In this document: positions 46,823-61,756 of the stretch, in pieces
How the letters are laid out: each line of letters begins with the position of its first letter
How positions within the stretch are numbered: position 1 is the stretch's first letter
From: an uncultured Crocinitomix sp.
Lineage (GTDB): Bacteria > Bacteroidota > Bacteroidia > Flavobacteriales_D > Crocinitomicaceae
NCBI GenBank assembly: GCA_937136425.1
Contig: CAKZON010000070.1
Location: 248,001 to 312,000, forward strand
DNA: 64,000 nt
Direction of reading: 5' to 3'
Translations under genes and position numbers: made by a program
Notes under the pieces: model-generated
What the model saw: the letters and a program-made list of their open reading frames with translations, nothing else
What the model was told of the DNA's origin: nothing
Databases searched by the model: none

Positions 46823-48055
46823 ATGGCTAAAAATGAGGGGATAAATTGTTCTTTTTGTGGTAGACCAAAGAATGAAGTTGGTATTTTAATTGCCGGGGTT
46901 ACAGGACATATTTGTGAAAACTGCATTGAGCAGGCACATCAAATTGTTGATGAGCAAATCAAATTTGACGAACCAGGTGAATTAACTACTGACTTTAATC
47001 TACTAAAACCTGCCCAGATTAAAGAACAATTGGACGAGTACATTATTGGACAGGATGAAGCCAAAAAAGTACTTTCAGTTGCTGTGTATAATCATTATAA
47101 AAGATTATCAATAGCGAATAAGGGAGAGGAGATGGAAATCGACAAATCAAATGTAATTTTGGTTGGACGCACCGGAACAGGTAAAACACTTTTGGCAAAA
47201 ACAATTGCTAAAACTTTAAATGTTCCTTTTTGCATTGCAGATGCAACCGTACTAACTGAAGCTGGTTATGTTGGAGAAGATGTTGAAAGCATTTTATCCC
47301 GTTTATTACAAGCGGCAGATTTTAATGTAGAAGCTGCTGAAAAAGGCATTGTATTTATTGATGAAATCGACAAAATTGCAAGGAAATCTGACAATCCTTC
47401 AATTACTAGAGATGTATCTGGAGAAGGTGTGCAACAAGCCATGCTAAAATTACTCGAAGGAACTGAGGTTAACGTTCCGCCACAAGGTGGACGAAAGCAT
47501 CCTGAGCAAAAAATGATTAAGGTTAACACAAAAAACATTCTGTTTATTGCAGGTGGTGCTTTTGATGGTGTTGAAAAAATCATTGGGCGCCGAGTAAATC
47601 GAAACATGATTGGATTTGCCTCAAAGGATGCAGAAAAACCAGACGAAGAAAATCTACTGGAGTATATTATTCCAACAGATATAAAAGAGTTTGGGTTGAT
47701 TCCAGAATTAATTGGACGAATGCCAGTTTTAACATACTTGCATCCGTTAGATGAAAAAGCTTTGCGTCGCATTTTAACTGAACCAAAAAATGCATTGGTA
47801 AAACAATACGTGCATTTATTTGAATTGGACGGTGTTAAATTACAGCTAGATGCTGAAGTATTAGACTTTATAGTAAGCAAGGCGCTTGAATATAAATTGG
47901 GCGCCAGAGGACTAAGGTCAATTTGTGAAGCCATTTTAAATGATGCTATGTTTGATATACCTTCTCAAAAAGATGTGAAAACATTTAGAGTTGATTTGAG
48001 CTATGCAGAATCTAAATTTGCGGGATCAAAAATGGCCAAACTTAAAATTGCATAG
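46823..48055 (+). CDS. clpX: ClpX ATPase subunit
   Basis: 410 aa. N-terminal zinc-binding domain with Cys9, Cys12, Cys31 and Cys34; Walker A GRTGTGKT (115-122, Arg where Pro is usual); Walker [13 protein letters not shown]-terminal small domain. Unfolds substrates for ClpP; translated from the same transcript as clpP. Confidence 0.98.
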
Positions 48056-49886: not shown

Positions 49887-50011
49887 GCTTGATAGTATTA
49901 CGTTCCTTTTCAGACATGAGTCGTTTCAAAAGCCCTTTCCCCCTATTGAGTTGTAGACAAATATTGAACGTTTATTCAGAAGCTCTGTGGCTATCAGTTA
50001 TTACAAATCAC

Positions 50012-50019
50012 TATATTTG
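50012..50019 (+). promoter_or_regulatory. -7 promoter element upstream of tRNA-Ser
   Basis: TATATTTG fits TAnnTTTG. It lies about 85 bp before the tRNA; the -33 site reads TGTG (49986-49989), a partial match. Confidence 0.4.
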
Positions 50020-50085
50020 CAGCCGCACAAAGATTTTTCCCATTGGTTTTAAATCTTGCACGGCTATTTATCTAAAGACATTGTT

Positions 50086-51711
50086 TTAATGAATAGCGAA
50101 TACTGGAAAGGTGGCAGAGTGGCTGAACGCGCACGCTTGGAAAGCGTGTTTACAGAAATGTAACGGGGGTTCGAATCCCCCTCTTTCCGCAGAAGGGGAT
50201 AACTGAAAAATTTCATTCAGTTGTCCCCTTTTTAACTTTCCCAAGCCCTTGTCCATATTGGGAAGCAGGTCAAATATCTGATTCAGTTGCGGGGTTCGAC
50301 ATTTTTTTCCATCAAAACTCAACTGTTCCATAAATATCGAACCCACGATCTTATGTTTGAGATTAATGCTGCCTGTAGTGTAGGTTTCCTGTACGTTCTC
50401 TAGTAAGTGTATGCCACTTTCTAATAATGCAACAAATTCACTCGTAGAAGTCTTTAAATCGGCTATTTTTTCCTTTATGTCCTTTTTTTCTTTTAAATGG
50501 CGTGCTTTAATGCTAACATACTCGGCGGGTTCAAGCATATCATCTAACATTAAGTCTTGTGATTTTATCAATCGAGCTTCGATTTGTTCTAGTTTTGCTT
50601 TGAGCGTTTTAAGTTCAGGTTTGTTGTCTACTCGCGACATTTTCATTTCATCCGCCAAGGTCGCATTGTAAAGGACTAGCATTTCAGGTTCGATTTGAAT
50701 AGACTTCAATAATTCATCAAATGCTTTGTGAACTTTGATTGCTGACACCCTTTGTTTCTTGCAATGGTTGCAGTGATAATATCCGTAACGTTTCCCTAAT
50801 TTACCCTTAGAATAACTTGCCGTCATGGTATGCGCGCATTTGTCACAGTTTAATACACCGCGTAAATGAAAGTCATCACGAAGTTTAGTGTATTTAGGTT
50901 CAAACTTACCTCTTGCTTTTCGGTTTCCTGCCAATGCTTGTTGCACTTCATAAAAAAGTGTTTCGCTTACGATTGGCTCATGTCGCCCTTCAACAATGCG
51001 CATGGGTTCTTTATCTAAAGCAGGAACTTCTATTTTCCCCATGTAAATCATTCGCTTTAGGATTTTGCTCATATTGTTGCGTGAAACCTTTATTCCTCTT
51101 TCGGCAAGATCAGCACGAATTTCATTTTGTGGTATTCCTTTGGCTACTTTTTCAAATATCTCTTTAACAACGGGTGCTTTTATAGGATCATGAAGTATTA
51201 TATGCTTCCCCTCTTCATTTCTAGCGGATATAAATCCAAAGAACGGTTTACGAGGCCAGTAACCGCTTTTTAATCCTTGGCGAACGCCACGACGAATTTT
51301 TATCGAACGTTTTTGATTGTCAACATCAGGAGCAGCCATATAAACGGCAAGCATTAACCATTGGTCAGGAATATTTAAATCAACAGGTTGTTCAATGGCT
51401 TGTGGAACAATACCACGTTTGGATAAGTCGCGAACGACATTTAATCCGTCTGTTAGGTCTCTTGAAAAACGATCCCATGAAGTAACAAGTAATTCGTCCG
51501 TTTCTAGTTCTTTTTTCTTAACCAGTTTCATCCACTTCTTCCATTCAGGTCTATCGAATGATTTTGCGGAATGATCTTCACGAATAACATGAACCACTTC
51601 ATAGCCCCATCTTTTGCAATAGTCTGTTAAGCGATCAAATTGATCGTCCAAACTATATCCTTTAGCTTGCTCGTCTGAACTTACCCGACACATGATTGTT
51701 ACCTTCTTCAT
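50086..51711 (-). CDS. Large serine recombinase of an integrative element
   Basis: 541 aa. N-terminal resolvase domain with catalytic Ser11 in MCRVSSDEQAKGYSLDDQ and TSWDRFSRDLTDGL; recombinase domain (about 155-265); zinc ribbon Cys-x2-Cys...Cys-x2-Cys (LNCDKCAHT, YYHCNHCKK); a coiled coil (about 375-420). The frame has no stop before tRNA-Ser: the last ~34 residues (after LSPSAERGGFEPP) are the antisense of the tRNA and its upstream flank. So the native C-terminus probably ends near LNEIFQL and was extended by integration, or the stop is provided by the tRNA region. Overlaps a 49-codon ORF by 4 bp (ATGA). Confidence 0.9.
   Translation of the reverse strand: MKKVTIMCRVSSDEQAKGYSLDDQFDRLTDYCKRWGYEVVHVIREDHSAKSFDRPEWKKWMKLVKKKELETDELLVTSWDRFSRDLTDGLNVVRDLSKRGIVPQAIEQPVDLNIPDQWLMLAVYMAAPDVDNQKRSIKIRRGVRQGLKSGYWPRKPFFGFISARNEEGKHIILHDPIKAPVVKEIFEKVAKGIPQNEIRADLAERGIKVSRNNMSKILKRMIYMGKIEVPALDKEPMRIVEGRHEPIVSETLFYEVQQALAGNRKARGKFEPKYTKLRDDFHLRGVLNCDKCAHTMTASYSKGKLGKRYGYYHCNHCKKQRVSAIKVHKAFDELLKSIQIEPEMLVLYNATLADEMKMSRVDNKPELKTLKAKLEQIEARLIKSQDLMLDDMLEPAEYVSIKARHLKEKKDIKEKIADLKTSTSEFVALLESGIHLLENVQETYTTGSINLKHKIVGSIFMEQLSFDGKKCRTPQLNQIFDLLPNMDKGLGKLKRGQLNEIFQLSPSAERGGFEPPLHFCKHAFQACAFSHSATFPVFAIH
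50105..50189 (+). tRNA. tRNA-Ser(GGA)
   Basis: 85 nt class II tRNA. Acceptor GGAAAGG pairs with TCTTTCC (one G-U), discriminator G50189; anticodon arm CACGC-TTGGAAA-GCGTG gives GGA; long variable arm; T arm GGGGGTTCGAATCCCCC. Its 3' half is overlapped on the opposite strand by the serine recombinase reading frame. Confidence 0.97.
50193..50234 (+). terminator. Terminator after tRNA-Ser
   Basis: 15-bp arms AAGGGGATAACTGAA (50193-50207) and TTCAGTTGTCCCCTT (50216-50230) with one G-U pair, followed by TTT. It lies wholly inside the recombinase reading frame on the other strand. Confidence 0.8.
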
Positions 51712-51857
51712 TTCTTCTTATTTTTCTGTTCTTGAATGATCTTCATATTTATTCTTGCTAGTTCAATCATAGTTTTCCGATACGATTCAAGTTGTTCATC
51801 TGATAAGTGTTTTCCTTTCTCTCCTAATATTTCTCTACACTTTTGTAAACTTATCAT
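51708..51857 (-). CDS. Short helical protein coupled to the recombinase
   Basis: 49 codons (MISLQKCREILGEKGKHLSD... EQKNKKK). Its TGA stop overlaps the recombinase ATG as ATGA, a classic translational-coupling arrangement. The sequence LQKCREILGEKGKHLSDEQLESYRKTMIELA resembles short ORFs that precede recombinases in Bacteroidota mobile elements. A recombination accessory role is inference. Confidence 0.65.
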   Translation of the reverse strand: MISLQKCREILGEKGKHLSDEQLESYRKTMIELARINMKIIQEQKNKKK

Positions 51858-51913
51858 CCGTTTGTTTTAGTTCTTTTCTCTATCCTAGTTCGCTTTCTTA
51901 TCTTCAATTTATC

Positions 51914-52558
51914 TTACAAATGGTTGTCTATCTCGACACCTTCCTTTTGTAAAAACTGACGTACAATTTGGGTGAAGTAAACTAATAGACAAGGTTCAGA
52001 CAAAAACGCCTGTGTTAAATGTTTATCCTCTCCAAGTGTCTCTATTAAACACGCTCCGTCACGTTTTATATATAGAACATATTCTTTCTCCTTCATTAAA
52101 GTGGAAACTATTAATGTGGTAAACATAGAGTTGACTACGTGCTTTTCAACTTGCGCTATTTCGTTTCTTAATCCTGCTTTTTCTTCCGTTAGTTTTTCTA
52201 TCTCGTCACTTAGTTCTTGCAGGATCACAGTATCAGAATCGCCAGATTCGTCATGGATTGCCATAAGCAAGCCTTCAATGTCAATTTCAGCAATTAAAAA
52301 TTCTTTGAGTTCGATAATGGATTTTATGGGAATACCAAAATCCCGTAACGATTTGACAAGTAATAACCATATATATTCTATTGGGCTATACTTCATCCTG
52401 AATTTGGTCTTTTTTGGTTGGAGATATACCCCTTTGTTACGCCAATCATAAGACGTTTTATCTGTTATACCCAAGTTGGCAAGCCCGAATTGTTTGTGCG
52501 TTACATATTCGATTACGCCTGAATATTCAGTTGTCTTTAATACTTTATTTTCGTTCAT
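51914..52558 (-). CDS. MerR-like DNA-binding protein of the element
   Basis: 214 aa. Residues about 20-85 resemble a MerR-type winged helix (HKQFGLANLGITDKTSYDWRNKGVYLQPKK then YSPIEYIWLLLVKSLRDFGIPIKSIIELKEFL); a coiled coil follows (110-140) and a C-terminal domain with two cysteines. Probably a regulator; target unknown. 56 bp upstream of the recombinase-coupled ORF. Confidence 0.7.
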   Translation of the reverse strand: MNENKVLKTTEYSGVIEYVTHKQFGLANLGITDKTSYDWRNKGVYLQPKKTKFRMKYSPIEYIWLLLVKSLRDFGIPIKSIIELKEFLIAEIDIEGLLMAIHDESGDSDTVILQELSDEIEKLTEEKAGLRNEIAQVEKHVVNSMFTTLIVSTLMKEKEYVLYIKRDGACLIETLGEDKHLTQAFLSEPCLLVYFTQIVRQFLQKEGVEIDNHL

Positions 52559-52626
52559 GTTCTTCTTTGATTAAAACCTAACCACACCTAAAGGTAATGT
52601 ATTTAATTCGTTATTCAAAATAATTT

Positions 52627-53121
52627 TTAATCTTCAGGTCGCTCACGTGACTGTTTGTTACGTAAACGTTTGATATGCTTTAGGGTATTTAGAGCATTGT
52701 TTGCCGTGCGTTGGTCAAACGAACAATAGCCATATTCACATTGATTATTCTGCGAATATTTATAGAGTGTTGTCATCACTCCTTTCATTTGCTCCAATTG
52801 CGTTTTTAATTTAGAATCAATTGGAGCAGCTACTTTCAATGACTGAATCATATCCTTCATGAAAATGACTGTGGAATAATGAATCGACATTTCTTTGCAC
52901 ATAGCTTCCACCTGTTTAATGTATGTATTAAATATTCGATTGATTAGTTCGGTAGTTTCAAGGCTACCCGCTGCGGGACGTGAAACTACAGCTCGTATTA
53001 ACTTAACTTTTTCACGGTTTCTTAATGCTTGTTGTTTGCAAGCATTAGAGCAATATTGTTTTGATTTATTTTTGTAGGTAAAGGTTTCTTTACAGATTGT
53101 ACACGCTTTCTCTCTCATCAT
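52627..53121 (-). CDS. Zinc-finger protein of the element, unknown function
   Basis: 164 aa from ATG 53121 (a TTG at 53136 is also in frame). N-terminal treble-clef-like finger Cys-x2-Cys...Cys-x3-Cys (ACTICKETFTYKNKSKQYCSNACKQQ), a pattern seen in short mobile-element proteins of Bacteroidota; the rest is helical and basic and ends RNKQSRERPED. The long non-coding region upstream carries TTGTTAC repeats. Confidence 0.7.
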   Translation of the reverse strand: MMREKACTICKETFTYKNKSKQYCSNACKQQALRNREKVKLIRAVVSRPAAGSLETTELINRIFNTYIKQVEAMCKEMSIHYSTVIFMKDMIQSLKVAAPIDSKLKTQLEQMKGVMTTLYKYSQNNQCEYGYCSFDQRTANNALNTLKHIKRLRNKQSRERPED

Positions 53122-53190
53122 ATCCTTTATATTCAACGTTGGATATAACAGAATTATTGTTTTAGGTAACGTTGCTAAAAAATTAGATTC

Positions 53191-53300
53191 TTGTTACGCT
53201 TTGATACTGAAAATGAAATTGAACAGACCTTTTGAGAAAATGACGTGCATTCTTTGTTACTCTACGTTACCAAAAGTTGCGCTTTGTTACCGCTTGTTAC
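53191..53300. repeat. TTGTTAC heptamer cluster (iteron-like)
   Basis: Four exact copies in the same orientation at 53191-53197, 53254-53260, 53284-53290 and 53294-53300, with one CGTTAC half-copy between. They lie 70-180 bp upstream of the zinc-finger gene. Confidence 0.6.
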
Positions 53301-53378
53301 GATTCGTTGCTTAAATTCGAAAATCACTAATCAAGAACCCCAGTAAAATCAGTACACTCCCTCATATATTAGTCATAA

Positions 53379-53404
53379 AACAGTCACACTCCCGTATGAC
53401 TGTT
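53379..53404. repeat. Inverted repeat AACAGTCA-N10-TGACTGTT
   Basis: Perfect 8-bp arms at 53379-53386 and 53397-53404. The left arm overlaps the second CAGTCACACTCCC copy. It could be an operator, a recombination accessory site or a weak terminator. Confidence 0.55.
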
Positions 53405-53591
53405 ATTATAATTTATTTGCTGTTTTTTCTTATAAATCCACAATTCTTAAAACCTGAATCCTAGTAAAAACCCATGATTACCTAATACAAACCCAATAAA
53501 TACTTCATAAAACCCTAATACATTTTTTAAAAAGAGATTACCCTTTCTAGCTTTGTCTTATTGGTTCGTGATGGTCTGTACTTAACTGTTC

Positions 53592-53897
53592 TTAATTGGG
53601 TTGGGTTTTCTTGAATAATTCGGTTAAGCCGTCGCATTCCTCTTCTAATCCAAAACTACGAAGCAGTTGCACAAGTGTACCAATTGAATGCACAATTTCA
53701 CTATGGTCTGATGGGCTACTTATTTCATTGAATCGGGTAATTAAATCAATGGACGAAAGTAAATTGGTTCTGATGATACTTAATTCGTTGTAATTTTTAA
53801 TTCCCACTTTAACATGGAAACCTTTTGAATTGGGTTCTGGAATTAATGTGGTACAATAATCTTCTTTGAAGTCTTTCAACTTTTTTAATGAACTCAT
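53592..53897 (-). CDS. Small protein of unknown function
   Basis: 101 aa, no recognised family. Soluble and mostly helical; the N-terminus is basic (MSSLKKLKDFKEDYCTT), followed by IKNYNELSIIRTNLLSSIDLITRFN and a C-terminal helix with LLRSFGLEEECDGLTELF. Upstream on the minus strand is a short GCGGA-AAAA-TCCGC hairpin (53916-53929). Confidence 0.55.
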   Translation of the reverse strand: MSSLKKLKDFKEDYCTTLIPEPNSKGFHVKVGIKNYNELSIIRTNLLSSIDLITRFNEISSPSDHSEIVHSIGTLVQLLRSFGLEEECDGLTELFKKTQPN

Positions 53898-53946
53898 AAT
53901 ACTTGTTTTTAGGAAGCGGAAAAATCCGCAGTAATTAATAAAAAAA

Positions 53947-54021
53947 TCTCGATAGACACAGGTGTCCTAACATACAAGTATGAGTCAGCTGTTTCCAGTT
54001 ATCTGCACCAGTCTATCGAGA
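53947..54021. ncRNA. Candidate structured RNA or DNA element
   Basis: A 75-bp sequence closed by a perfect 11-bp stem TCTCGATAGAC/GTCTATCGAGA (53947-53957 / 54011-54021), continued by GGTGT/GCACC (53961-53965 / 54005-54009), and enclosing a perfect CATAC-AA-GTATG hairpin (53971-53982). No coding frame, and no T tract of terminator type. Nature unknown: it may be a folded transcript (either strand), a recombination site or an origin of transfer. Confidence 0.4.
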
Positions 54022-54183
54022 AGTATCTTTGTTAATTGTATCATGAACTTGTATTTAGGAAATACTAAAATAAGGAAAATTTCGGACTCTGTATTGTCTG
54101 TTTAGGGTTAATATATGCGCTTTTGGAAAGATTTCTTGTGAATTTCTCCATTGAAGGTTATATTTAATGCTCAACTCAAACTT

Positions 54184-56649
54184 ATGTCAAATAAACCCCA
54201 TTTTTTATTCCGAAACCCTGTACAGGGTACAACAACTTTTAGGTATGGCCCAAGAAACCCAGGTCCTTCTGATGAAAATCGGGATGAAATCCCTGACTAC
54301 ACGCTAAAAACGAATAGTTTTAGATCGTCAATTCAAGGTTTTTTTGGAGATTTAGATTTAAGAAATGAACAACGTAATCTAGAGTTGGATATTCCAGAAA
54401 ACATTGTTTGTTTGGAGCTTATATTTCATGGGTATTTTGACTCCCCTGAATTTGAAAACTATTATCGAAATAATTTTGGACTTTCACCAATTCGCTATTT
54501 CAATCATAATAAGAACGCTCTTTTTGCTGTACATGATATAGATTTATTTGAAGTTTTCATTCAACATATTGAGAACTTTATAAACTGTGATGATCATAAT
54601 GTGTCTGAAAGAAATTATGACAATAAGATAAAATTCATAGAGTCTTTTCATTTTCATACGACCGATCGAATTATTGAGAATTTAATTGAAGAAGATGAAG
54701 AAACGATCTATTTATCTTTACTGGACAATCAAGAGCTAATAGTTCAAGATAGGATTCCTGTTTTACAGGAAAAACTTTTCGTCTATTTGAACGAAAGGGG
54801 AATGGAATATAGATATAACCCCGTAAATGAACAGGTAGAGCTAAAAAACATTGATAACGAGGGTTTAATTGAAATAGCTCAAAATTTTGATATTGTACAA
54901 AAGATTAATAGCATATCTACTGCTGTGAGACGTCCGGGACTATTTGGAACGTCTCAAATCGAATATCCATTTTCTATCCGTCAAGTTAGTGATCTCCCAA
55001 TCATTGGTGTTGCAGATACAGGTATAAGTGCTCAAACTCCATTGTCATCAATAATTGTTAATACAGACAATACTTATCATGTATCAGGTGGAGACCCTAA
55101 AGTGGATGATGCTTCTCATGGAACAGGTGTTGGTGCATTTGCTGCTCTTGGGAAGCAGTTGGCTGGAAATGTGTCGGGGGAACTCGTTCCTGATGCACGA
55201 CTTTTATCAATAAAAATTCTTTCTGGAGAATCAGGATCATTATCTTACTTAGATGTGATTGAAATGCTAAAAAAGGCACATGATGAATTGGGCATAAAAC
55301 TTTTTGTTTTAACAATTTCAGTTAAGAATGGTTTACCTAACGGAACAACGTTTTCTGACTACGCCTTCCTTTTAGATCAACTAGCATTTGAAAATGATTT
55401 AATGGTGTTTATTTCTACTGCCAATATGAATAATATGGGGATGGATTCGACTCCGTATGATAATCATCCCGAACATTTATTGGGAGAATCGGGGAATATG
55501 TGTAGCCCTGCTGACAGTATGAACAACTTGACGGTTGGTGCGATAGGAGATAACCTAGAACACGTTGAGTATACTGCAGACAGCTTTCCACTAACGGACA
55601 AAGATTTACCTACGATTTACACGAGAAAATTTCATTTTGATTATTCAAATACAAGAATGAAAAATGCGAAATTGATAAAACCTGATGTTCTCTATTATGG
55701 TGGAAATTTTACCGTAAGAACAGGTGGTCTTCTTGATAATATTGGTGATGCGGGAATTCAATATTTAACTTCTAATCCTGCCGTTCCATTTGAAAAGGAA
55801 TTGGGGACAAGTTTTGCCACGCCATTGGTAGCCAATTTGGCTGCAAAAATTATCGGAAAATATCCAGAGCTTAACCTCCAGTCGGTTAAGGCTTTAATTA
55901 TCAATAGTGCTGAAGAAATTGATGTCCAAAAACAAAATCCAAATATTGAAATTTTTCATAATAGATATATTTGCGGTCATGGCAAACCTGATGAAAGTAG
56001 ATGCCTCTTTTCTAATGACAATGAAGTTACATTGATTCTCGAAGATTCAATTAGAATTGATGAGATAAAGACCCATGAGTTTAAATTGCCTGATTATTTA
56101 CTAGCAGAAAACTTGAAAGATCGAAGCTTGCTTAAAGTTTCTGGAACGCTCTGTTATAAAATAAAGCCAATTAGAAATAACGACTTAGCGTATTGTCCTG
56201 TAAATATTTCTTTCGGTATTATGAAAAACCTACCTCTTGAAGCTTATAGGTTCGAGGAGCGAAATGGTCAACGAAAAAGAGTTGCTACTGGCATATTGAA
56301 AAATTCCTCTAAGAACATAGCAGGAAAGAAAGGGAAAGGTTGGTCACAAGACGCAATTTATAAAAGTAAAGTATTAAGTAATACCCAAAAAATCCAATTC
56401 AATCTAAGCAAGAGTAACATAAATGAAGAAAATCGAACTTTCAAAGTTGCGTTATTCTCTCACTTCCATAAAATTTTGACCGAAATAGAAAAAAGTAGCT
56501 TACCCGATACTTATGAATTTAGCCTTGTTTTAACAATTAAAGAAAACCAGAAGGAAAGTGACCTCACTGGACGACTCTATGAGGATATTCAGCTCGAAAA
56601 TAATTTAGAAATAATTACGACTCTTGACGCTGAATTAGAGATTGAATAA
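54184..56649 (+). CDS. Cytoplasmic subtilisin-like (S8) protease, IetS-like
   Basis: 821 aa from ATG 54184 (an upstream TTG would add 11). No signal peptide. The S8 domain (about 265-570) has all catalytic residues: Asp278 (IIGVADTGI), His312 (DASHGTGVGA), Ser543 (LGTSFATPLVA) and the oxyanion Asn in STANMN (about 414). The N-terminal 260 residues are an unrecognised mixed domain; the C-terminal 250 residues are beta-rich. It is convergent with an AAA+ ATPase gene with a 1-bp gap. Subtilase plus AAA+ ATPase is the composition of the IetAS anti-phage system, so defence is the leading hypothesis; a proteolytic role in protein quality control is the alternative. Confidence 0.85.
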   Translation: MSNKPHFLFRNPVQGTTTFRYGPRNPGPSDENRDEIPDYTLKTNSFRSSIQGFFGDLDLRNEQRNLELDIPENIVCLELIFHGYFDSPEFENYYRNNFGLSPIRYFNHNKNALFAVHDIDLFEVFIQHIENFINCDDHNVSERNYDNKIKFIESFHFHTTDRIIENLIEEDEETIYLSLLDNQELIVQDRIPVLQEKLFVYLNERGMEYRYNPVNEQVELKNIDNEGLIEIAQNFDIVQKINSISTAVRRPGLFGTSQIEYPFSIRQVSDLPIIGVADTGISAQTPLSSIIVNTDNTYHVSGGDPKVDDASHGTGVGAFAALGKQLAGNVSGELVPDARLLSIKILSGESGSLSYLDVIEMLKKAHDELGIKLFVLTISVKNGLPNGTTFSDYAFLLDQLAFENDLMVFISTANMNNMGMDSTPYDNHPEHLLGESGNMCSPADSMNNLTVGAIGDNLEHVEYTADSFPLTDKDLPTIYTRKFHFDYSNTRMKNAKLIKPDVLYYGGNFTVRTGGLLDNIGDAGIQYLTSNPAVPFEKELGTSFATPLVANLAAKIIGKYPELNLQSVKALIINSAEEIDVQKQNPNIEIFHNRYICGHGKPDESRCLFSNDNEVTLILEDSIRIDEIKTHEFKLPDYLLAENLKDRSLLKVSGTLCYKIKPIRNNDLAYCPVNISFGIMKNLPLEAYRFEERNGQRKRVATGILKNSSKNIAGKKGKGWSQDAIYKSKVLSNTQKIQFNLSKSNINEENRTFKVALFSHFHKILTEIEKSSLPDTYEFSLVLTIKENQKESDLTGRLYEDIQLENNLEIITTLDAELEIE

Positions 56650-56650
56650 A

Positions 56651-57673
56651 TTAATGTTGATTTTCTTGTTCAACTTTAATCAAGTTTTGCCAAAGTAAAG
56701 AGTCTATTATAGTAATCTTAGGCTTGTCTGTCATACTTTGATTTAACAAGCTTCTTTTTATTGCTGTTAATAATGTTCTTTGTATAGTATAAAAAGAAAG
56801 TCCCTCAGATAGCTCTATGAGCTTTTTCAATGAAACTTTCTTATCTAGTGTAAAGACACCTGATTTCAAAGTTTTTTGAATTAACTCTTTGATTTGATCT
56901 TTAGACGGAATATTAAATTCAACTTTTAAATCAAATCTTCTCATCAAAGCGGGATCAATAGCCTCAACGCTATTCGTGGCAGCAATAATAATACTCTTTT
57001 GAGGTAAGTAATCAAATAACTGAAGAATCGTATTAACAACCCTTTTCATTTCTGCATGATCCTGATTAGTATCTCGCATTTTCCCTAGACTATCAAATTC
57101 ATCTAGAAATATGACACACTCCTCGCTTGCAGCTCGACGAAAAATTTTCGCTAAATTCTTACTGGTTTCACCAAGTTTTGAAGATACAATAGCTCCAAGA
57201 CTAATGACAATCATGATCTTGTCCAACTCTCCTGCCATTACATAAGAAGCAAGCGTTTTCCCACAACCTGAAGCTCCATGAAAAAGTATCTTATTAGAAA
57301 CTGGAAGATCAAAACCTTGAAGCATTTCAAGATTTTGATGTTCGGAAACGAAATACCTTAACTCCGTTTTTATATCAGAAGAAATCACCAAATTATCAAA
57401 GTTGTAATCTGATGTCAGTTTTTCTATAATGAAATCTTTTACGTCATTATCTTCTTCACGTAATAGATGTTTTTGAGATCCAACTACTGATAAACCTGAA
57501 TGTGCCTTATTACGAATCCCTTCCTTTAATATAGATTGCAATTGGATGGCGAAATTTGTTTTTTTTGTTTGCTTGGAATATGTGACAAGATCATTTAAAA
57601 CTTTCAAAAGTTCTTCTTGATTGTTTTCGAGACCGTACTTCGCTATTTCCTTTATGTAATCAAATTGTGACAT
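56651..57673 (-). CDS. AAA+ ATPase paired with the subtilase, IetA-like
   Basis: 340 aa. N-terminal helical region (1-75), then an AAA+ core: Walker A GASGCGKT (133-140), Walker B CVIFLDEFD (186-194), sensor 1 Asn234 (AATNSVEAID) and arginine fingers Arg245-Arg246 (LMRRFD), with a short C-terminal helical lid. Classic FtsH/Spastin-like clade features. Convergent with the protease gene: stop codons are 1 bp apart. Inferred to recognise or unfold the trigger and activate or feed the protease, by analogy with IetAS. Confidence 0.87.
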   Translation of the reverse strand: MSQFDYIKEIAKYGLENNQEELLKVLNDLVTYSKQTKKTNFAIQLQSILKEGIRNKAHSGLSVVGSQKHLLREEDNDVKDFIIEKLTSDYNFDNLVISSDIKTELRYFVSEHQNLEMLQGFDLPVSNKILFHGASGCGKTLASYVMAGELDKIMIVISLGAIVSSKLGETSKNLAKIFRRAASEECVIFLDEFDSLGKMRDTNQDHAEMKRVVNTILQLFDYLPQKSIIIAATNSVEAIDPALMRRFDLKVEFNIPSKDQIKELIQKTLKSGVFTLDKKVSLKKLIELSEGLSFYTIQRTLLTAIKRSLLNQSMTDKPKITIIDSLLWQNLIKVEQENQH

Positions 57674-57866
57674 CAGCAGAAAAGGTGTTTTTGGGTGATC
57701 TTAGAACCCAAAAGTTACAAAAATTAAGTGCAAAATTACCTATTATATACCGTTTTATTTAATAAAAGTTACTTGAATCCATTAAACCATTCAATAAGTT
57801 TTATTTTACTTCTTCGTACAAATAAAGAATTTTAACCAATTTGATTACTTTTATAGTCATACGCAA

Positions 57867-58730
57867 ATGCAAGATCTAAAACAAATACTATCCCATCTAC
57901 CATCCGAAAGGATAGCAGACCTTGAGCAAATCACTCAAAAGATATTGGACACCCACCGTGTAGACATCATAATGCTTTTCGGAAGTTACGCAAGAGGTGA
58001 TTTCAAAACCGAACGCGGCAAAGAGCAGGGAAAGAAAAGTGATTTTGATATTTTGATTGTTGTTGAAAGTGGAGACAGAAGAAAGCATGTAGTTTCTAAA
58101 CTAAGAGGCGCTTTTAAGGACATGGAAATTGTTGTGCAAACACTAGTGGTTAATATTAGCGTTGTAAACAAAGCTTTGGAAGAAAATCAATATTTCTATT
58201 CTGATATTAAGAAAGAAGGTATTGAGTTGTTTAATTCTGGACGATATGACTTTGCTTCATTTAAGGGTTTGTCTCCAACTCGTAGAAGGGAAATTGCAGA
58301 GGCTGATTTTGAAGAATGGAAAGATCAAGCTGAAGTTTCGTTTAAATATGCACAATCAGCTATACCTAACAAAGATTTTAGTTTCGCTTCGTTTCTCCTT
58401 CAACAAACAATTGAAATGTGTTACACTGCTATCGAAATGGTTTTCAGTCATTACAATCCACATGAGCATAATCTATTTGTACTGCGTGATCGTTGTGTAC
58501 GTTTTCATAAACGTTTGAAAGGCGTTTTCCATTATGATAATGAAGAGCATACGAAATTGTTTGATCAATTAAATTATGCTTATATCGGAGGACGTTACCG
58601 CAACGAAAAGGAATTTCCTGTGGATATAGATAAGATTGATTTTTGGAAGCAGGAGACGGAAGCCTTTTTGAAATTGACGGAGGAGATTTGTTTGGAGCGG
58701 ATTGAGCATTTCGGCAAAAGCTCAATGTAA
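57867..58730 (+). CDS. Nucleotidyltransferase-HEPN fusion protein
   Basis: 287 aa. N-terminal MNT-type nucleotidyltransferase domain (about 10-125) with MLFGSYARGDF (37-46) and the metal-binding Asp59-x-Asp61 (SDFDILIVVES). C-terminal HEPN domain (about 145-280; EEWKDQAEVSFKYAQSA, LLQQTIEMCYTAIEMVFSHYNP, LFVLRDRC, LNYAYIGGRYRNEKEF). Two-gene MNT/HEPN pairs are toxin-antitoxin systems in which the MNT partner modifies the HEPN RNase; here both are one polypeptide, and a clear Rx4-6H RNase motif is not seen, so nuclease activity is uncertain. Divergent from the AAA+ gene. Confidence 0.85.
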   Translation: MQDLKQILSHLPSERIADLEQITQKILDTHRVDIIMLFGSYARGDFKTERGKEQGKKSDFDILIVVESGDRRKHVVSKLRGAFKDMEIVVQTLVVNISVVNKALEENQYFYSDIKKEGIELFNSGRYDFASFKGLSPTRRREIAEADFEEWKDQAEVSFKYAQSAIPNKDFSFASFLLQQTIEMCYTAIEMVFSHYNPHEHNLFVLRDRCVRFHKRLKGVFHYDNEEHTKLFDQLNYAYIGGRYRNEKEFPVDIDKIDFWKQETEAFLKLTEEICLERIEHFGKSSM

Positions 58731-59110
58731 AGGTTTAGGGCATTGGAAATTTAGTTTTTATTTCGGGTATTCCCTCCTCATTTATCCCGATACATTTTTG
58801 CTCCCCAATTTTTTAATTTTGAATAGATAATGGCTCAGGGCTATTTATTGACTGGTTAGAAAATGGTGAACTACTGAAGGGAAATGAAAAACGGGAATGA
58901 CAATATTTCTGAACGACGAAAAAATATTTCAGGCAGCATCCATAGTCTTCTTTATTTAAATTTTGAATAACGAATAGCTATTCATTAATACTCAAAATGT
59001 AAGGTTAAACTTGGACAATAGACTGCTTTACCTTATTAGTTCGTTTCGATCTGTTCTTATTCATTTTACAACTTGGTTAAAGTTGTATAGCTATTTCAAG
59101 GTAAGACAGA
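58731..59110. other. 380-bp intergenic region between the MNT-HEPN and barrel genes
   Basis: No coding frame. Contains a perfect 12-bp palindrome GAATAGCTATTC (58972-58983) and a hairpin ACAACTT-N5-AAGTTGT (59068-59086) without a T tract. This is a possible site for the right boundary of the element, but no clear copy of the tRNA 3' end was found. Confidence 0.55.
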
Positions 59111-61756
59111 TTAATGTTTTATTTTCCAACTTAGTTTAATCATGACGTATCGTTTCAAAACTGTTTGTTCTGAATTTTCAGTATAGTCTGTTGTTGCAGT
59201 TTGATTAATACCCGTATTTTGATTCAGAATGTCAAAAACCATTAAGGACAGTTTTGTTTTTCGTTTATTGAAAGTATAATCAATAGTTGAATTCCAGAGT
59301 AAATTTGTTTTTTGAGAAATGAGACCTGTATTTGACCTTTTCACCAATAAGAATTGACTATTCCAAATGAGTTTTTTGATTATTCGTATGTCTGAGGAGA
59401 CTTGAACTTCATGTTTGAACAAATATCGATTAAATTGTGTTGACAAACCATAGGAGGTATTTCTGACGGAGGTTTGATATCCTATTTTGAGATAGTTTTT
59501 ATTCTCAAATACAATTTTAGTACTCACTTCTGGAGCGATAGAAAAGATATAGTTTTTATAGATGTATCCATTGTTGAAGCTAATATTTCGACTCACTCCA
59601 GGTGTAAGGCTCAATTTTAGATTCATTGCTAAATTTGAATCTAAGGCTACCTTTTTTTGATATGACATGCTTCCATAAATAGAGTAGCCACCTTTAACAT
59701 TTTCGAAGGTGGTATGTTTAATTAAATTTTCATCAATAACGGATTTTGGAATTATCTGATTGTTTTTTAGATCAATATTCAGATAGACAAACATTTGCTG
59801 CTTATTCTTAAAAGATTGATACTTGAAGTTAAATTGATGATTTTCTTGTAGATTGAGATCTGGGTTTCCTGAAATAGTATTTAATGGAGTTATGATATTT
59901 TCAAAGGGTTGAAGTTCGGAGAAAGCTGGTAATGATTTGTTTAAAGAATATGTACCATTAACGGATGCTTTTTTATTGATTTTATATTTAATTTGAGAGG
60001 TCAAGAATGTCGCATTGAAATGTCTTTCAAAATTGGTTTCAGGTCTTAGTAAGTCTATGTAATTTAGTGTCTTAACAAAATGGCTTAAAGTTATATCTGA
60101 AGACCAATTTTTCTTTTTGTAGGTCATTTTGATATAGGGAGTTATGTCATTTTCAGTTGTTTTGAAATCTGTACTTAGTGCAGTACTAAGCACAAAGAAT
60201 TCATTATTGTTATATGTGCTATAGTTTTCTTTTATTTCTTCTTTGAAGTAAGTTGCTCCTATCAAAAGAAAAATGCGTTGTTCTTTGACATTGAATTTAT
60301 AGGATGTACCAAGTTGAATTGTAGAATTATTTTGATCTAGTTTGCGCGTTTGATTTTGTTTCAAATTAACTAATTCAGTATCATCTTGAAAGTAAATATC
60401 GGAACTAGTAATGTTTTTGTCTTGTTGAAGGTCTATGATATTAGAAAGTTCAAATTTTAGAATATTTCCAATTTTGCCTGTCTTTTTCGTAATTGAAAGT
60501 TTATTTTCAATATTGAATCCAGTGGCGTCTGTTTCTGTAAAGCCATTTGAACCATTAATGATAGAATTGATTTCTTGAAAAGAAGTGTTACTGTAGTATG
60601 CTTCGGTTTCATTTTTGGTAATAATGAATGAAGGAATCACACTAATCAGCAGTGTTGGATTTACTTCGTAGTCTATCCGTAAATTTATTAAATGTATAGT
60701 TCCACTATTTTCTGAAATTCTGTGTTTAGTTGAGAAATAATTTGAATTTGGGAAAGAATTATCTCTAATTCTTTCCATTTCATTATTTCGCTTAGTTCTT
60801 GTTACGAAATAATTACCACTAAAAGTTACTTTTTTGCTTAATTCACTCGATAAGGTTAAGCCTAGTTTCTGAACTGTTTTGGGGCGTTTATTTTGAGTAA
60901 TTTTTTTAATTGAAGAACCTGAACTATTTATGTTGTTGGTTCCTGATAAGATGTTAAATTGAATTTTTTCTCCAAATGAGTTTACCCCAAGCTTTAGCTC
61001 AAAACGCTTATTTGTACCACACCCTACACTAATATTCCCCATTAGTTTATTTTTATCTCGATCTTTAATCACCAGGTTTATAGTTTTGGAATCATTACTG
61101 CCCTCGTCATTTGTAAAAGCTTCACTTTTGCTTTTAGTAGAGGTGATTTGTATGCTTTCCAAAATTTCCTCTGGAAAGTCCTCTAGGGCTGGAATGAATT
61201 GGTCCTTAAAGAATGGCTTCCCATTAATCGTAACTTTATCTACAGGCAGACCATTTACAAGCATTATTCCTTCAGAAGTTAGAACCACACCCGGAAGTGA
61301 TTCAAGTAATTCAACCGTACCTTCAATACGTTCATTTCGAAAATAATCTGCCTTAAAAGTTAATGTATCGGAATTGTATGAAATAGGAGAGGGGCTTGAT
61401 TGAATAACTACAGCATTTAGTAAGTAATTATTTTTTTTTAAGGAAATGGTATCCAATAAAATTTCAGAATGAGTTATCAATATTTCTTTTGCATATTGAT
61501 GGTAACCGATATAATCTATGAATACTTGAATAGAAGGGACTGACTCATTAATGTTAATGATGAATTTTCCATTGTTATTAGTAAAGGTATAGTTTACTAA
61601 AGTACTGTCCTTGGAATTCATTATTCGCACTTGTGCTCCTTCTAAAAGAGTATCTGAAACTTTAGATTTTACCCAACCTTTAATTTCAACATTATTTTGC
61701 TGAGAAAATGTGTTTAATGTAAACAAAATAAAAGAAATCAAGAATTGAATTCGCAT
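59111..61756 (-). CDS. TonB receptor-like outer-membrane protein with carboxypeptidase-like N-terminal domain
   Basis: 881 aa. Signal peptide (FLISFILFTLNTFSQQ), a carboxypeptidase regulatory-like module (about 20-105, VEIKGWVKSKVSDTLLEGAQVRIMNSKDSTLVNYTFTNNNGKF), a plug-like region (about 110-230, including VELLESLPGVVLTSEGIMLVNGLPVDKVTINGKPFF) and a long beta-barrel of the OMP_b-brl_3 type ending YVMIKLSWKIKH. A TonB box is not evident. Exact cargo unknown. Confidence 0.85.
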   Translation of the reverse strand: MRIQFLISFILFTLNTFSQQNNVEIKGWVKSKVSDTLLEGAQVRIMNSKDSTLVNYTFTNNNGKFIININESVPSIQVFIDYIGYHQYAKEILITHSEILLDTISLKKNNYLLNAVVIQSSPSPISYNSDTLTFKADYFRNERIEGTVELLESLPGVVLTSEGIMLVNGLPVDKVTINGKPFFKDQFIPALEDFPEEILESIQITSTKSKSEAFTNDEGSNDSKTINLVIKDRDKNKLMGNISVGCGTNKRFELKLGVNSFGEKIQFNILSGTNNINSSGSSIKKITQNKRPKTVQKLGLTLSSELSKKVTFSGNYFVTRTKRNNEMERIRDNSFPNSNYFSTKHRISENSGTIHLINLRIDYEVNPTLLISVIPSFIITKNETEAYYSNTSFQEINSIINGSNGFTETDATGFNIENKLSITKKTGKIGNILKFELSNIIDLQQDKNITSSDIYFQDDTELVNLKQNQTRKLDQNNSTIQLGTSYKFNVKEQRIFLLIGATYFKEEIKENYSTYNNNEFFVLSTALSTDFKTTENDITPYIKMTYKKKNWSSDITLSHFVKTLNYIDLLRPETNFERHFNATFLTSQIKYKINKKASVNGTYSLNKSLPAFSELQPFENIITPLNTISGNPDLNLQENHQFNFKYQSFKNKQQMFVYLNIDLKNNQIIPKSVIDENLIKHTTFENVKGGYSIYGSMSYQKKVALDSNLAMNLKLSLTPGVSRNISFNNGYIYKNYIFSIAPEVSTKIVFENKNYLKIGYQTSVRNTSYGLSTQFNRYLFKHEVQVSSDIRIIKKLIWNSQFLLVKRSNTGLISQKTNLLWNSTIDYTFNKRKTKLSLMVFDILNQNTGINQTATTDYTENSEQTVLKRYVMIKLSWKIKH

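Follow-up and report, generated by a model that had tools for sequence, protein, structure and literature searches.

The analysed window, a stretch of 64,000 nucleotides from an uncultured Crocinitomix sp., contains a subtilase gene (ietS) and an AAA+ ATPase gene (ietA) that meet tail to tail. Sequence comparison shows that such convergent pairs are a distinct tail-to-tail subtype of IetAS, which occurs in many Bacteroidota. We consider it likely that the pair is a toxin-antitoxin and anti-phage module of this subtype, in which the roles of toxin and antidote and the use against phages would be those of its relatives.

The ietS-ietA pair and its proteins

The gene ietS (54184..56649, + strand) encodes a cytosolic S8 subtilase of 821 aa and was assigned by PADLOC, Pfam S8 and an AF2 model. 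Its start was set to ATG 54184 by the starts of homologues, the ORF list has TTG 54151 instead. The gene ietA (56651..57673, - strand) encodes an AAA+ ATPase of 340 aa, which was assigned by PADLOC, Pfam AAA and an AF2 model. At the joint (56647..56653) the two stop codons flank the single base 56650, as described in the initial annotation. The IetAS-type composition proposed there is borne out by the PADLOC matches of the subtilase (IetS, 8.8e-45) and of the ATPase (IetA, 5.2e-69; Pfam AAA, 2e-29), and PADLOC IetS models match all 58 IetS proteins of the convergent clade. The gene content is that of IetAS, an S8 protease next to an AAA+ ATPase with intact Walker motifs. The arrangement is convergent and not that of the canonical co-directional operon (same strand, A then S). 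Both proteins stay below the curated cut-offs of NCBIfam, with 118 of 900 bits for IteS (NF042956) and 204 of 510 bits for IteA (NF042959). A chance origin of the pair is excluded by the PADLOC E-values together with the identical layout at 63 other loci. The pair was also considered as a housekeeping protease or housekeeping ATPase, which was rejected.

IetS consists of an N-terminal region (1-262), the S8 domain (about 268-600), a C-terminal beta domain and an acidic tail. Asp278, His312, Asn414 and Ser543 are present and invariant across 58 IetS rows. The highest 17-residue Kyte-Doolittle mean within the first 60 residues is -0.11, so that a hydrophobic leader is absent and the protein is indeed a signal-less S8 protease with intact Asp278, His312 and Ser543. 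The AF2 model (pLDDT 87.2) superimposes on KP-43 with Z 28.5 and an rmsd of 2.8 over 372 aligned residues, a comparison which barely probes residues 1-261. No IetS-specific solved structure was found among the sequence matches listed (57/57; best 60 of 70). The long N-terminal domain noticed earlier stands as to its size, since the Pfam S8 match begins at residue 272 and about 265 residues precede S8, but it is not peculiar to the window protein. The IetS profile of the convergent clade aligns to co-directional IetS including this region (hhalign 96.7%, E 3.6e-10), and the homology spans residues 1-794 of 821. Two beta-alpha-beta-beta-alpha-beta runs are predicted in the N-terminal region (residues 76-157 and 174-243). 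In the comparison with I9, the top Foldseek match was the proform 3afg. A subtilisin propeptide is unsupported by sequence, as hhalign gave less than 1% (six I9 rows, row L160 misread) and no Pfam I9 match appeared at E up to 1.

IetA carries Walker A Lys139, Walker B Asp191-Glu192 and Arg245-Arg246, all invariant across 56 IetA rows, which confirms it as a complete AAA+ ATPase. An MIT domain at its N-terminus was neither among the best 25 of 81 families nor among the 10 of the window protein. A second AAA gene of the window (46823-48055) appears clpX-like by eye. The AF2 model of IetA (pLDDT 81.9) resembles the AAA domain of PAN (Z 24.7, rmsd 2.6, 251 aligned), with residues 1-68 barely probed, followed by FtsH (Z 24.3, rmsd 2.4) and Vps4 (Z 23.6, rmsd 3.0). 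These neighbours would also suit a targeted unfoldase-protease like FtsH, Clp or PAN with the proteasome, in which IetA feeds phage or damaged proteins to IetS and no self-poisoning takes place. However, the protease of relatives kills alone and their ATPase neutralises it, unlike a passive protease chamber, according to the accessible part of the source (PMC8562856), and we regard such a targeted machine as quite improbable. In Mycoplasma, the accessible text describes the protease of TA132/3 as toxic, its neutralisation by the ATPase in both E. coli and Mycoplasma, and a lethal effect of deleting the ATPase alone; the activity given there for these relatives is that of a toxin-antitoxin system (PMC8562856).

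Transferred to the window, this toxin-antitoxin scheme would mean that free IetS, as a cytosolic subtilase, kills or arrests its own cell and that IetA, a PAN/Vps4-like AAA+ ATPase, holds it inactive. If IetA or the balance of the two were disturbed, as phage infection might do, the protease would be released and growth aborted.

Conservation of the convergent arrangement

A first contig scan with the window IetS as sole query found no relative. In an orientation-blind scan with the IetA of the convergent clade 64 loci were collected, and at 63 of them ietS adjoins ietA convergently. Conserved convergent pairing had been named beforehand as a supporting test, and its outcome is therefore positive. 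The same count rules out an assembly artefact or a local accident as the source of the convergence. Five of the 63 convergent loci are damaged or interrupted. An inserted gene separates the two genes at L086 and L103, the ietS frame is split at L124, L129 and L141, and ietS is shortened or cut by the contig at L092 and L115. For the alignments, 55 of the 64 IetA rows and 54 of the 63 IetS rows of the census were used; seven broken, partial or nearly identical IetS copies and two on contigs of earlier loci were dropped, contigs of equal length being taken as the same. A class search added a weaker second copy in the genome G618 (L157), which is arranged A then S, and a locus (L158) without an IetA match in the examined piece. 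The convergent layout is kept across at least 23 named genera.

The stop-to-stop gap lies between -14 and +33 bp at 58 of the 63 convergent census loci and, with five further loci, at 63 of 68. The convergent IetA proteins fall into 66 clusters at 98% identity and 42 at 80%, and the gap is kept in 39 of these 42. Only 5 of 36 other convergent pairs from the same loci have a gap in this range (median 177.5 bp), in a control that is small, based on crude ORF calls and made up of pairs unlike the functionally tied ietA and ietS.

In the IetA tree the convergent pairs form a single clade (22 of 45 rows, support 100/100), and likewise in the IetS tree (22 of 44 rows, support 100); both trees took in 18 of the 63 census loci. 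The 18 other ietAS pairs of the phylum are all arranged A then S, as are all 33 plasmid records compared, which are those common to two best-60 tables, out of 415 with an IetS match, and include many near-copies. The convergent pairs constitute a distinct subtype because convergence is clade-wide, the clade is single and supported, and the other pairs are A-then-S. The orientation, which the initial annotation called unusual, is thus opposite to that of these 18 pairs and 33 records but the rule within its own clade. In the openly licensed literature we found no description of a convergent ietAS layout, a statement which concerns this literature and not print as a whole. The ClpX-like gene at 46823-48055 served as outgroup of the IetA tree and is too distant (end branch 10) to fix its root. 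The convergent form may be derived from the co-directional one, a direction suggested by the spread of A-then-S over phyla and not by the tree root. Bacteroidota families are intermixed in the IetS tree, a pattern that would be expected of a module spreading horizontally.

The single origin in both trees also fits the view that the geometry is functionless. A single inversion, placed at the clade's root, would then explain the layout, and compact mobile modules would have kept the joint without selection on its spacing. Against this stands the excess of narrow gaps over the control pairs, with the limits of that control given above. We rate the chances of this explanation as even. It is compatible with the toxin-antitoxin part of our preferred reading.

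Mobile element and cargo slot

A serine-recombinase element integrated at a tRNA-Ser gene carries the pair as exchangeable cargo. The large serine recombinase (50086..51711, - strand) has a frame that ends inside the antisense of tRNA-Ser (gga; 50105..50190, + strand), which is the insertion site and lies about 4 kb from ietS. Homology to the congener G005 ends at 50191. An Rfam search of 50000-59200 (E up to 0.5) returned the tRNA itself and, overlapping it, two matches below threshold. The cargo slot (54078..57864) holds ietS and ietA in the window. Beside it lies a conserved 101-aa ORF (53592..53897, - strand) to which no family was assigned. Near the left edge, upstream of ietS, there is an imperfect palindrome (53947..54021; ssDNA fold z -4.1); another site in this genome carries a copy of it at 81%. 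The right edge is marked by an NT-HEPN fusion of a Polbeta nucleotidyltransferase and HEPN (57867..58730, + strand). In a congener, and likewise elsewhere in this genome, the same two edges enclose other contents, in agreement with the cargo reading that the initial annotation drew from the neighbouring recombinase and tRNA gene.

Such a position would also be expected if the module served to keep the mobile element in the genome by post-segregational killing and not to fight phages. The founding ietAS was a stability determinant of pTiC58 (Yamamoto 2009, as cited in the accessible part of PMC8562856). However, the element is also present at this tRNA in the congener, where its slot lacks ietAS and is filled by different cargo, which means that the element does not need ietAS to persist. 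Some neighbours at other convergent loci are phage-defence genes; among the 110 nearest ORFs, single matches to BrxL, JetD, DpdF, PD-Lambda-1 and type I R-M were counted (raw counts; 108 of 112 neighbour ORFs were used). Element maintenance is therefore an unlikely main function, though somewhat less so than the targeted unfoldase-protease.

The joint, its possible regulation and related systems

No terminator hairpin was found within 60 nt of the stops at the window joint, where the best hairpins reach -2.0 kcal/mol in the S direction and -1.5 kcal/mol in the A direction; this agrees with the lack of room for terminators noted initially. The nearest consensus terminator-like sites fall inside the opposite genes, on the + strand at 56811-56823, roughly 160 bp deep in ietA, and on the - strand at 55881-55864, roughly 770 bp deep in ietS. 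In a survey of 59 of the 63 convergent census loci, hairpin terminators of -9 kcal/mol or below were present at 10 A ends and 9 S ends (background 2/59 and 4/59), and hairpins of -5 kcal/mol or below at 28 S ends versus 13 in the background. The joints of L081, L117 and L128 carry a strong two-way hairpin terminator, a point in favour of a functionless geometry. Antisense read-through cannot be universal because some joints carry such hairpins, and in the window the terminator-like site roughly 160 bp beyond the end of ietS is a further point against it. Synonymous conservation is not clearly raised near the joint, neither in the last 30 codons of ietA (0.436 vs 0.373 mid-gene) nor in ietS (0.504 vs 0.461), and this again favours a geometry without function.

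A Bacteroidota -7 box, TAATTTTG, was located by motif scan at 57731..57738 (- strand), 65 nt before the ietA ATG. TAnnTTTG occurs within 100 bp upstream of ietA at 30 of 64 loci, compared with 5.8 (sd 2.2) in dinucleotide shuffles and 4 on the opposite strand. Upstream of ietS it was found at 12 of 64 loci and, in the comparison with shuffles, at 12 of 63 against 4.8 (sd 2.1) expected; with realigned starts it was found at 13 of 58 (p 0.008). The promoter bias toward ietA is a matter of degree because the ietS box is above chance as well. Co-directional ietA has the box in 4 of 17 cases (difference p 0.10). This distribution fits separate, unequal promoters, of which that of ietA would usually be the better one.

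Operon coupling is what usually accounts for the way genes are ordered in modules of toxin-antitoxin or defence type. In the co-directional subtype, the tight ietA-ietS operon would ensure that the antidote is made first from a shared mRNA. In the tail-to-tail subtype, ietS would be turned round and each gene would be driven by a promoter of its own, with that of ietA usually better. With abutting stops, often without a terminator, transcription of ietA could continue as antisense into ietS. The initial proposal that antisense overlap could set the ratio of the two proteins would suit the hairpin-less window joint and the unequal promoter motifs, but not the lack of clear extra synonymous conservation or the joints with strong terminators. 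The ietA message might then act both as antidote mRNA and as read-through antisense RNA repressing the mRNA of the protease, so that the tail-to-tail joint replaces operon coupling. We consider this further step doubtful. If it were true, one ietA transcript would give antitoxin control at the protein and the RNA level, and both controls would be lifted together once infection lowered transcription in the host.

The window pair shares with IetAS (PADLOC IetA/IetS; NCBIfam IteA/IteS) the two families, the adjacency of the genes and the IetS homology over residues 1-794. It differs by its convergent instead of A-then-S arrangement, its separate clade and scores far under the NCBIfam equivalog cut-offs. 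Tools that rely on operon order or narrow equivalog models would miss this subtype or score it low. TA132/3 of Mycoplasma mycoides and the ietAS of pTiC58 have the same composition, and their toxin and antidote roles would be expected here, whereas TA132/3 is described in the accessible text as an operon in which the antitoxin gene precedes the toxin gene with no intergenic region between them (PMC8562856). Convergent genes without a terminator are one layout of the excludon, or of regulation by convergent 3' overlap; a toxin-antitoxin pair of the IetAS kind is not among the cases described in the accessible part of that source (PMC7154746). The likeness to the excludon concerns the layout and the hairpin-less joint, as read from the DNA. 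Within a known module, a single clade keeps a layout that is opposite and just as tight, and the co-directional and convergent IetAS offer a natural comparison for how the dosage of toxin and antidote is set.

The ietS-ietA pair and its products

Two complete genes, ietS for an S8 subtilase (54184-56649, + strand) and ietA for an AAA+ ATPase (56651-57673, - strand), face each other with a single base between their stop codons, in agreement with the tail-to-tail arrangement 1 bp apart described in the initial annotation. The ORF list opens ietS at TTG 54151; homologues begin at the codon of ATG 54184, the start chosen earlier. The Asp278/His312/Ser543 triad of IetS is intact as proposed, is accompanied by Asn414, and these catalytic residues are invariant in a 58-row alignment of the clade formed by convergent pairs. 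IetA contains Lys139, Asp191-Glu192 and Arg245-Arg246, and its key residues are invariant across 56 clade rows. A hydrophobic leader was not found in IetS, consistent with its description as a protease without signal. The PADLOC profiles identified the products as IetS (8.8e-45) and IetA (5.2e-69) and thereby uphold the IetAS assignment, while the narrow NCBIfam models IteS and IteA matched with 118 bits (cut-off 900) and 204 bits (cut-off 510). A protein search found a single copy in the window genome. In a search of 40 genomes including its own, no convincing IetS match was detected in the eight other genomes of the genus, the best of theirs having E 1.9e-5 over less than 100 residues.

Across one set of homologues, identity to the window proteins is 52-64% for IetA and 27-42% for IetS, so that IetA is far more alike. 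The AlphaFold model of IetS (pLDDT 87.2, pTM 0.75) shows an S8 and beta domain resembling the KP-43 protease (Z 28.5, rmsd 2.8, 372 aligned). The unrecognised N-terminal domain of about 260 residues noted previously is present but not peculiar: its 262 residues are no special addition, because a homologous region occurs in co-directional IetS (hhalign 96.7%, E 3.6e-10; 100% for whole proteins). It is predicted to form two beta-alpha-beta-beta-alpha-beta runs, a topology known from ferredoxin-like folds and from the propeptides of subtilisins. A relationship of this region to I9 was not supported at the sequence level. The last 20 residues of clade IetS form an acidic tail (mean 5.8 acidic and 0.24 basic residues, 63 loci); the values for co-directional IetS are 3.2 and 1.4 (17 loci). 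The nearest structures to the AAA domain of IetA are PAN, FtsH and Vps4.

Orientation and phylogeny of IetAS loci

The PADLOC IetS profile (E <= 1e-15) matched 31 of 395 genomes of the window's phylum, presumably Bacteroidota. We examined 32 loci, from 30 of these genomes, genome G034 and the window. A full IetA adjoins IetS in 22; 18 of these pairs run A-then-S on one strand and four converge. For the other 10 loci the available stretch contains no full IetA, in some cases owing to a contig end. An IetA alignment of the four convergent loci was used for an orientation-blind scan of one genome per species (84,980 species). It yielded 64 loci, all labelled as Bacteroidota or Ignavibacteria and from at least 23 named genera; as it depends on short conserved peptides, it reaches the convergent clade and not every IetA. 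ietS is convergent in 63 of the 64. Convergent pairing is therefore conserved among the collected homologous loci, and the orientation, initially regarded as unusual, is the normal one of its clade. The sole exception, L119, lacks ietS. Two ORFs of no assigned family replace it there (L119:9038-10674), convergent with ietA and 11 bp past its stop.

The stop-to-stop gap lies within -14 to +16 at 57 of the 63 loci and within -14 to +33 at 58. At 16 loci it is exactly -4, the two stops overlapping as in TTAA or CTAA. For all but one of the five exceptions a cause can be seen: in Chitinophaga japonensis the gene of a reverse transcriptase (L086:9181-10761; RVT_1 6.8e-14) lies between the pair, L103 has a transposase-like ORF (by eye), and the ietS frame is split in L124 and L129. 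In L080 the gap is 317 bp. The ietS frame is likewise split in L141, and shortened or cut by the contig in L092 and L115. A class search added four convergent loci (gaps 5, 0, 5 and 23); a weaker match runs A-then-S. After removal of same-contig copies, 63 of 68 convergent loci have gaps of -14 to +33 (39 of 42 clusters at 80% IetA identity), compared with 5 of 36 control convergent pairs from the same loci, which rest on crude ORF calls (median 177.5 bp; Fisher p 2e-15). Plasmid records that appear in both 60-row match lists, many of them near-copies, were A-then-S in 33/33 cases, as were six annotated plasmid examples.

The first trees placed the four convergent pairs on one branch for both proteins (100/100). 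With plasmid sequences added, convergent rows again formed one clade in the IetA tree (22/45 rows, 100/100) and the IetS tree (22/44 rows, 100). Tail-to-tail IetAS is thus a real, distinct subtype. Resolution within this clade is almost absent for IetA. Bacteroidota families are intermixed in the IetS tree, which suggests horizontal movement.

The cargo slot at tRNA-Ser

The match of congener G005 to the window stops at 50191, the end of tRNA-Ser, with slot-edge remnants about 9 kb further on. The element also occurs in congener G003, located at the same tRNA, with recombinase, small genes and both slot edges, one being the stretch up to 54077 and the other the NT-HEPN gene from 57865 on. Between them, ietAS is replaced by a 675-aa ORF whose HATPase match (4e-4) is below threshold. 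On contig C19 of the window genome, the same two edges (window positions 54077 and 57864) flank a 209-aa ORF. Slots with identical edges, at the palindrome side and the NT-HEPN start, span 54078-57864 in the window, L192:3220-5399 in a congener and L195:8836-9644 at a second site of the window genome. Since the contents between identical edges differ, this slot takes at least three cargoes, IetAS among them, which fits the earlier view of a cargo beside a recombinase at a tRNA gene.

A long imperfect palindrome (53947-54021; single-strand DNA fold z -4.1) adjoins the slot, has an 81% copy at another site of the window genome and is possibly a recombination or replication hairpin. The NT-HEPN fusion gene (57867-58730; Polbeta 2.5e-8, HEPN 3.4e-9) is conserved together with the element; its product has weak, sub-threshold similarity to the MntA antitoxin. 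The serine recombinase frame crosses tRNA-Ser antisense (50086-50190), its final residues being tRNA-derived, and by coordinates the L192 frame likewise overlaps its tRNA. Near the second slot copy, L195:115-7938 contains by eye a defence-like three-gene SMC/ABC-type set and a Septu-like AAA + HNH pair. Among the 110 nearest ORFs of other convergent loci, raw counts gave six with phage-integrase domains and one match each to BrxL, JetD, DpdF and PD-Lambda-1.

Expression signals and comparison with known systems

TAnnTTTG is the Bacteroidota -7 box consensus given in PMC7366714. It occurs within 100 bp of ietA at 30 of 64 loci, compared with 5.8 in shuffles (sd 2.2) and 4 on the opposite strand. 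For ietS the count is 12 of 64 (12/63 in the comparison with shuffles, which gave 4.8, sd 2.1), or 13/58 once the starts are realigned, a difference from ietA with p 0.008. Measured against shuffles, the box thus exceeds chance for both genes, more so for ietA. The window has one at -65 of ietA and none within 100 bp of ietS; the co-directional set has it at 4/17 ietA and 1/17 ietS.

No terminator hairpin was found at the window joint. Of 59 loci, 10 have a hairpin of <= -9 kcal/mol at the A end and 9 at the S end (background 2 and 4). In the window, transcription in the S direction would meet a terminator-like site about 160 bp inside ietA, and transcription in the A direction one about 770 bp inside ietS, so these sites would limit any transcript overlap. 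Close to the joint, conservation of synonymous positions is raised slightly at most; hence the geometry is conserved and the joint sequence is not. Convergence could permit antisense control of the excludon type (PMC7154746). The tail-to-tail geometry may also have a neutral origin.

An anti-phage use of IetAS was reportedly described by Gao in 2020, and both PADLOC and NCBIfam name the families accordingly. The toxin and antidote roles of IetS and IetA would be those of their relatives: in Mycoplasma, according to PMC8562856, an ATPase-protease pair forms a functional toxin-antitoxin operon.
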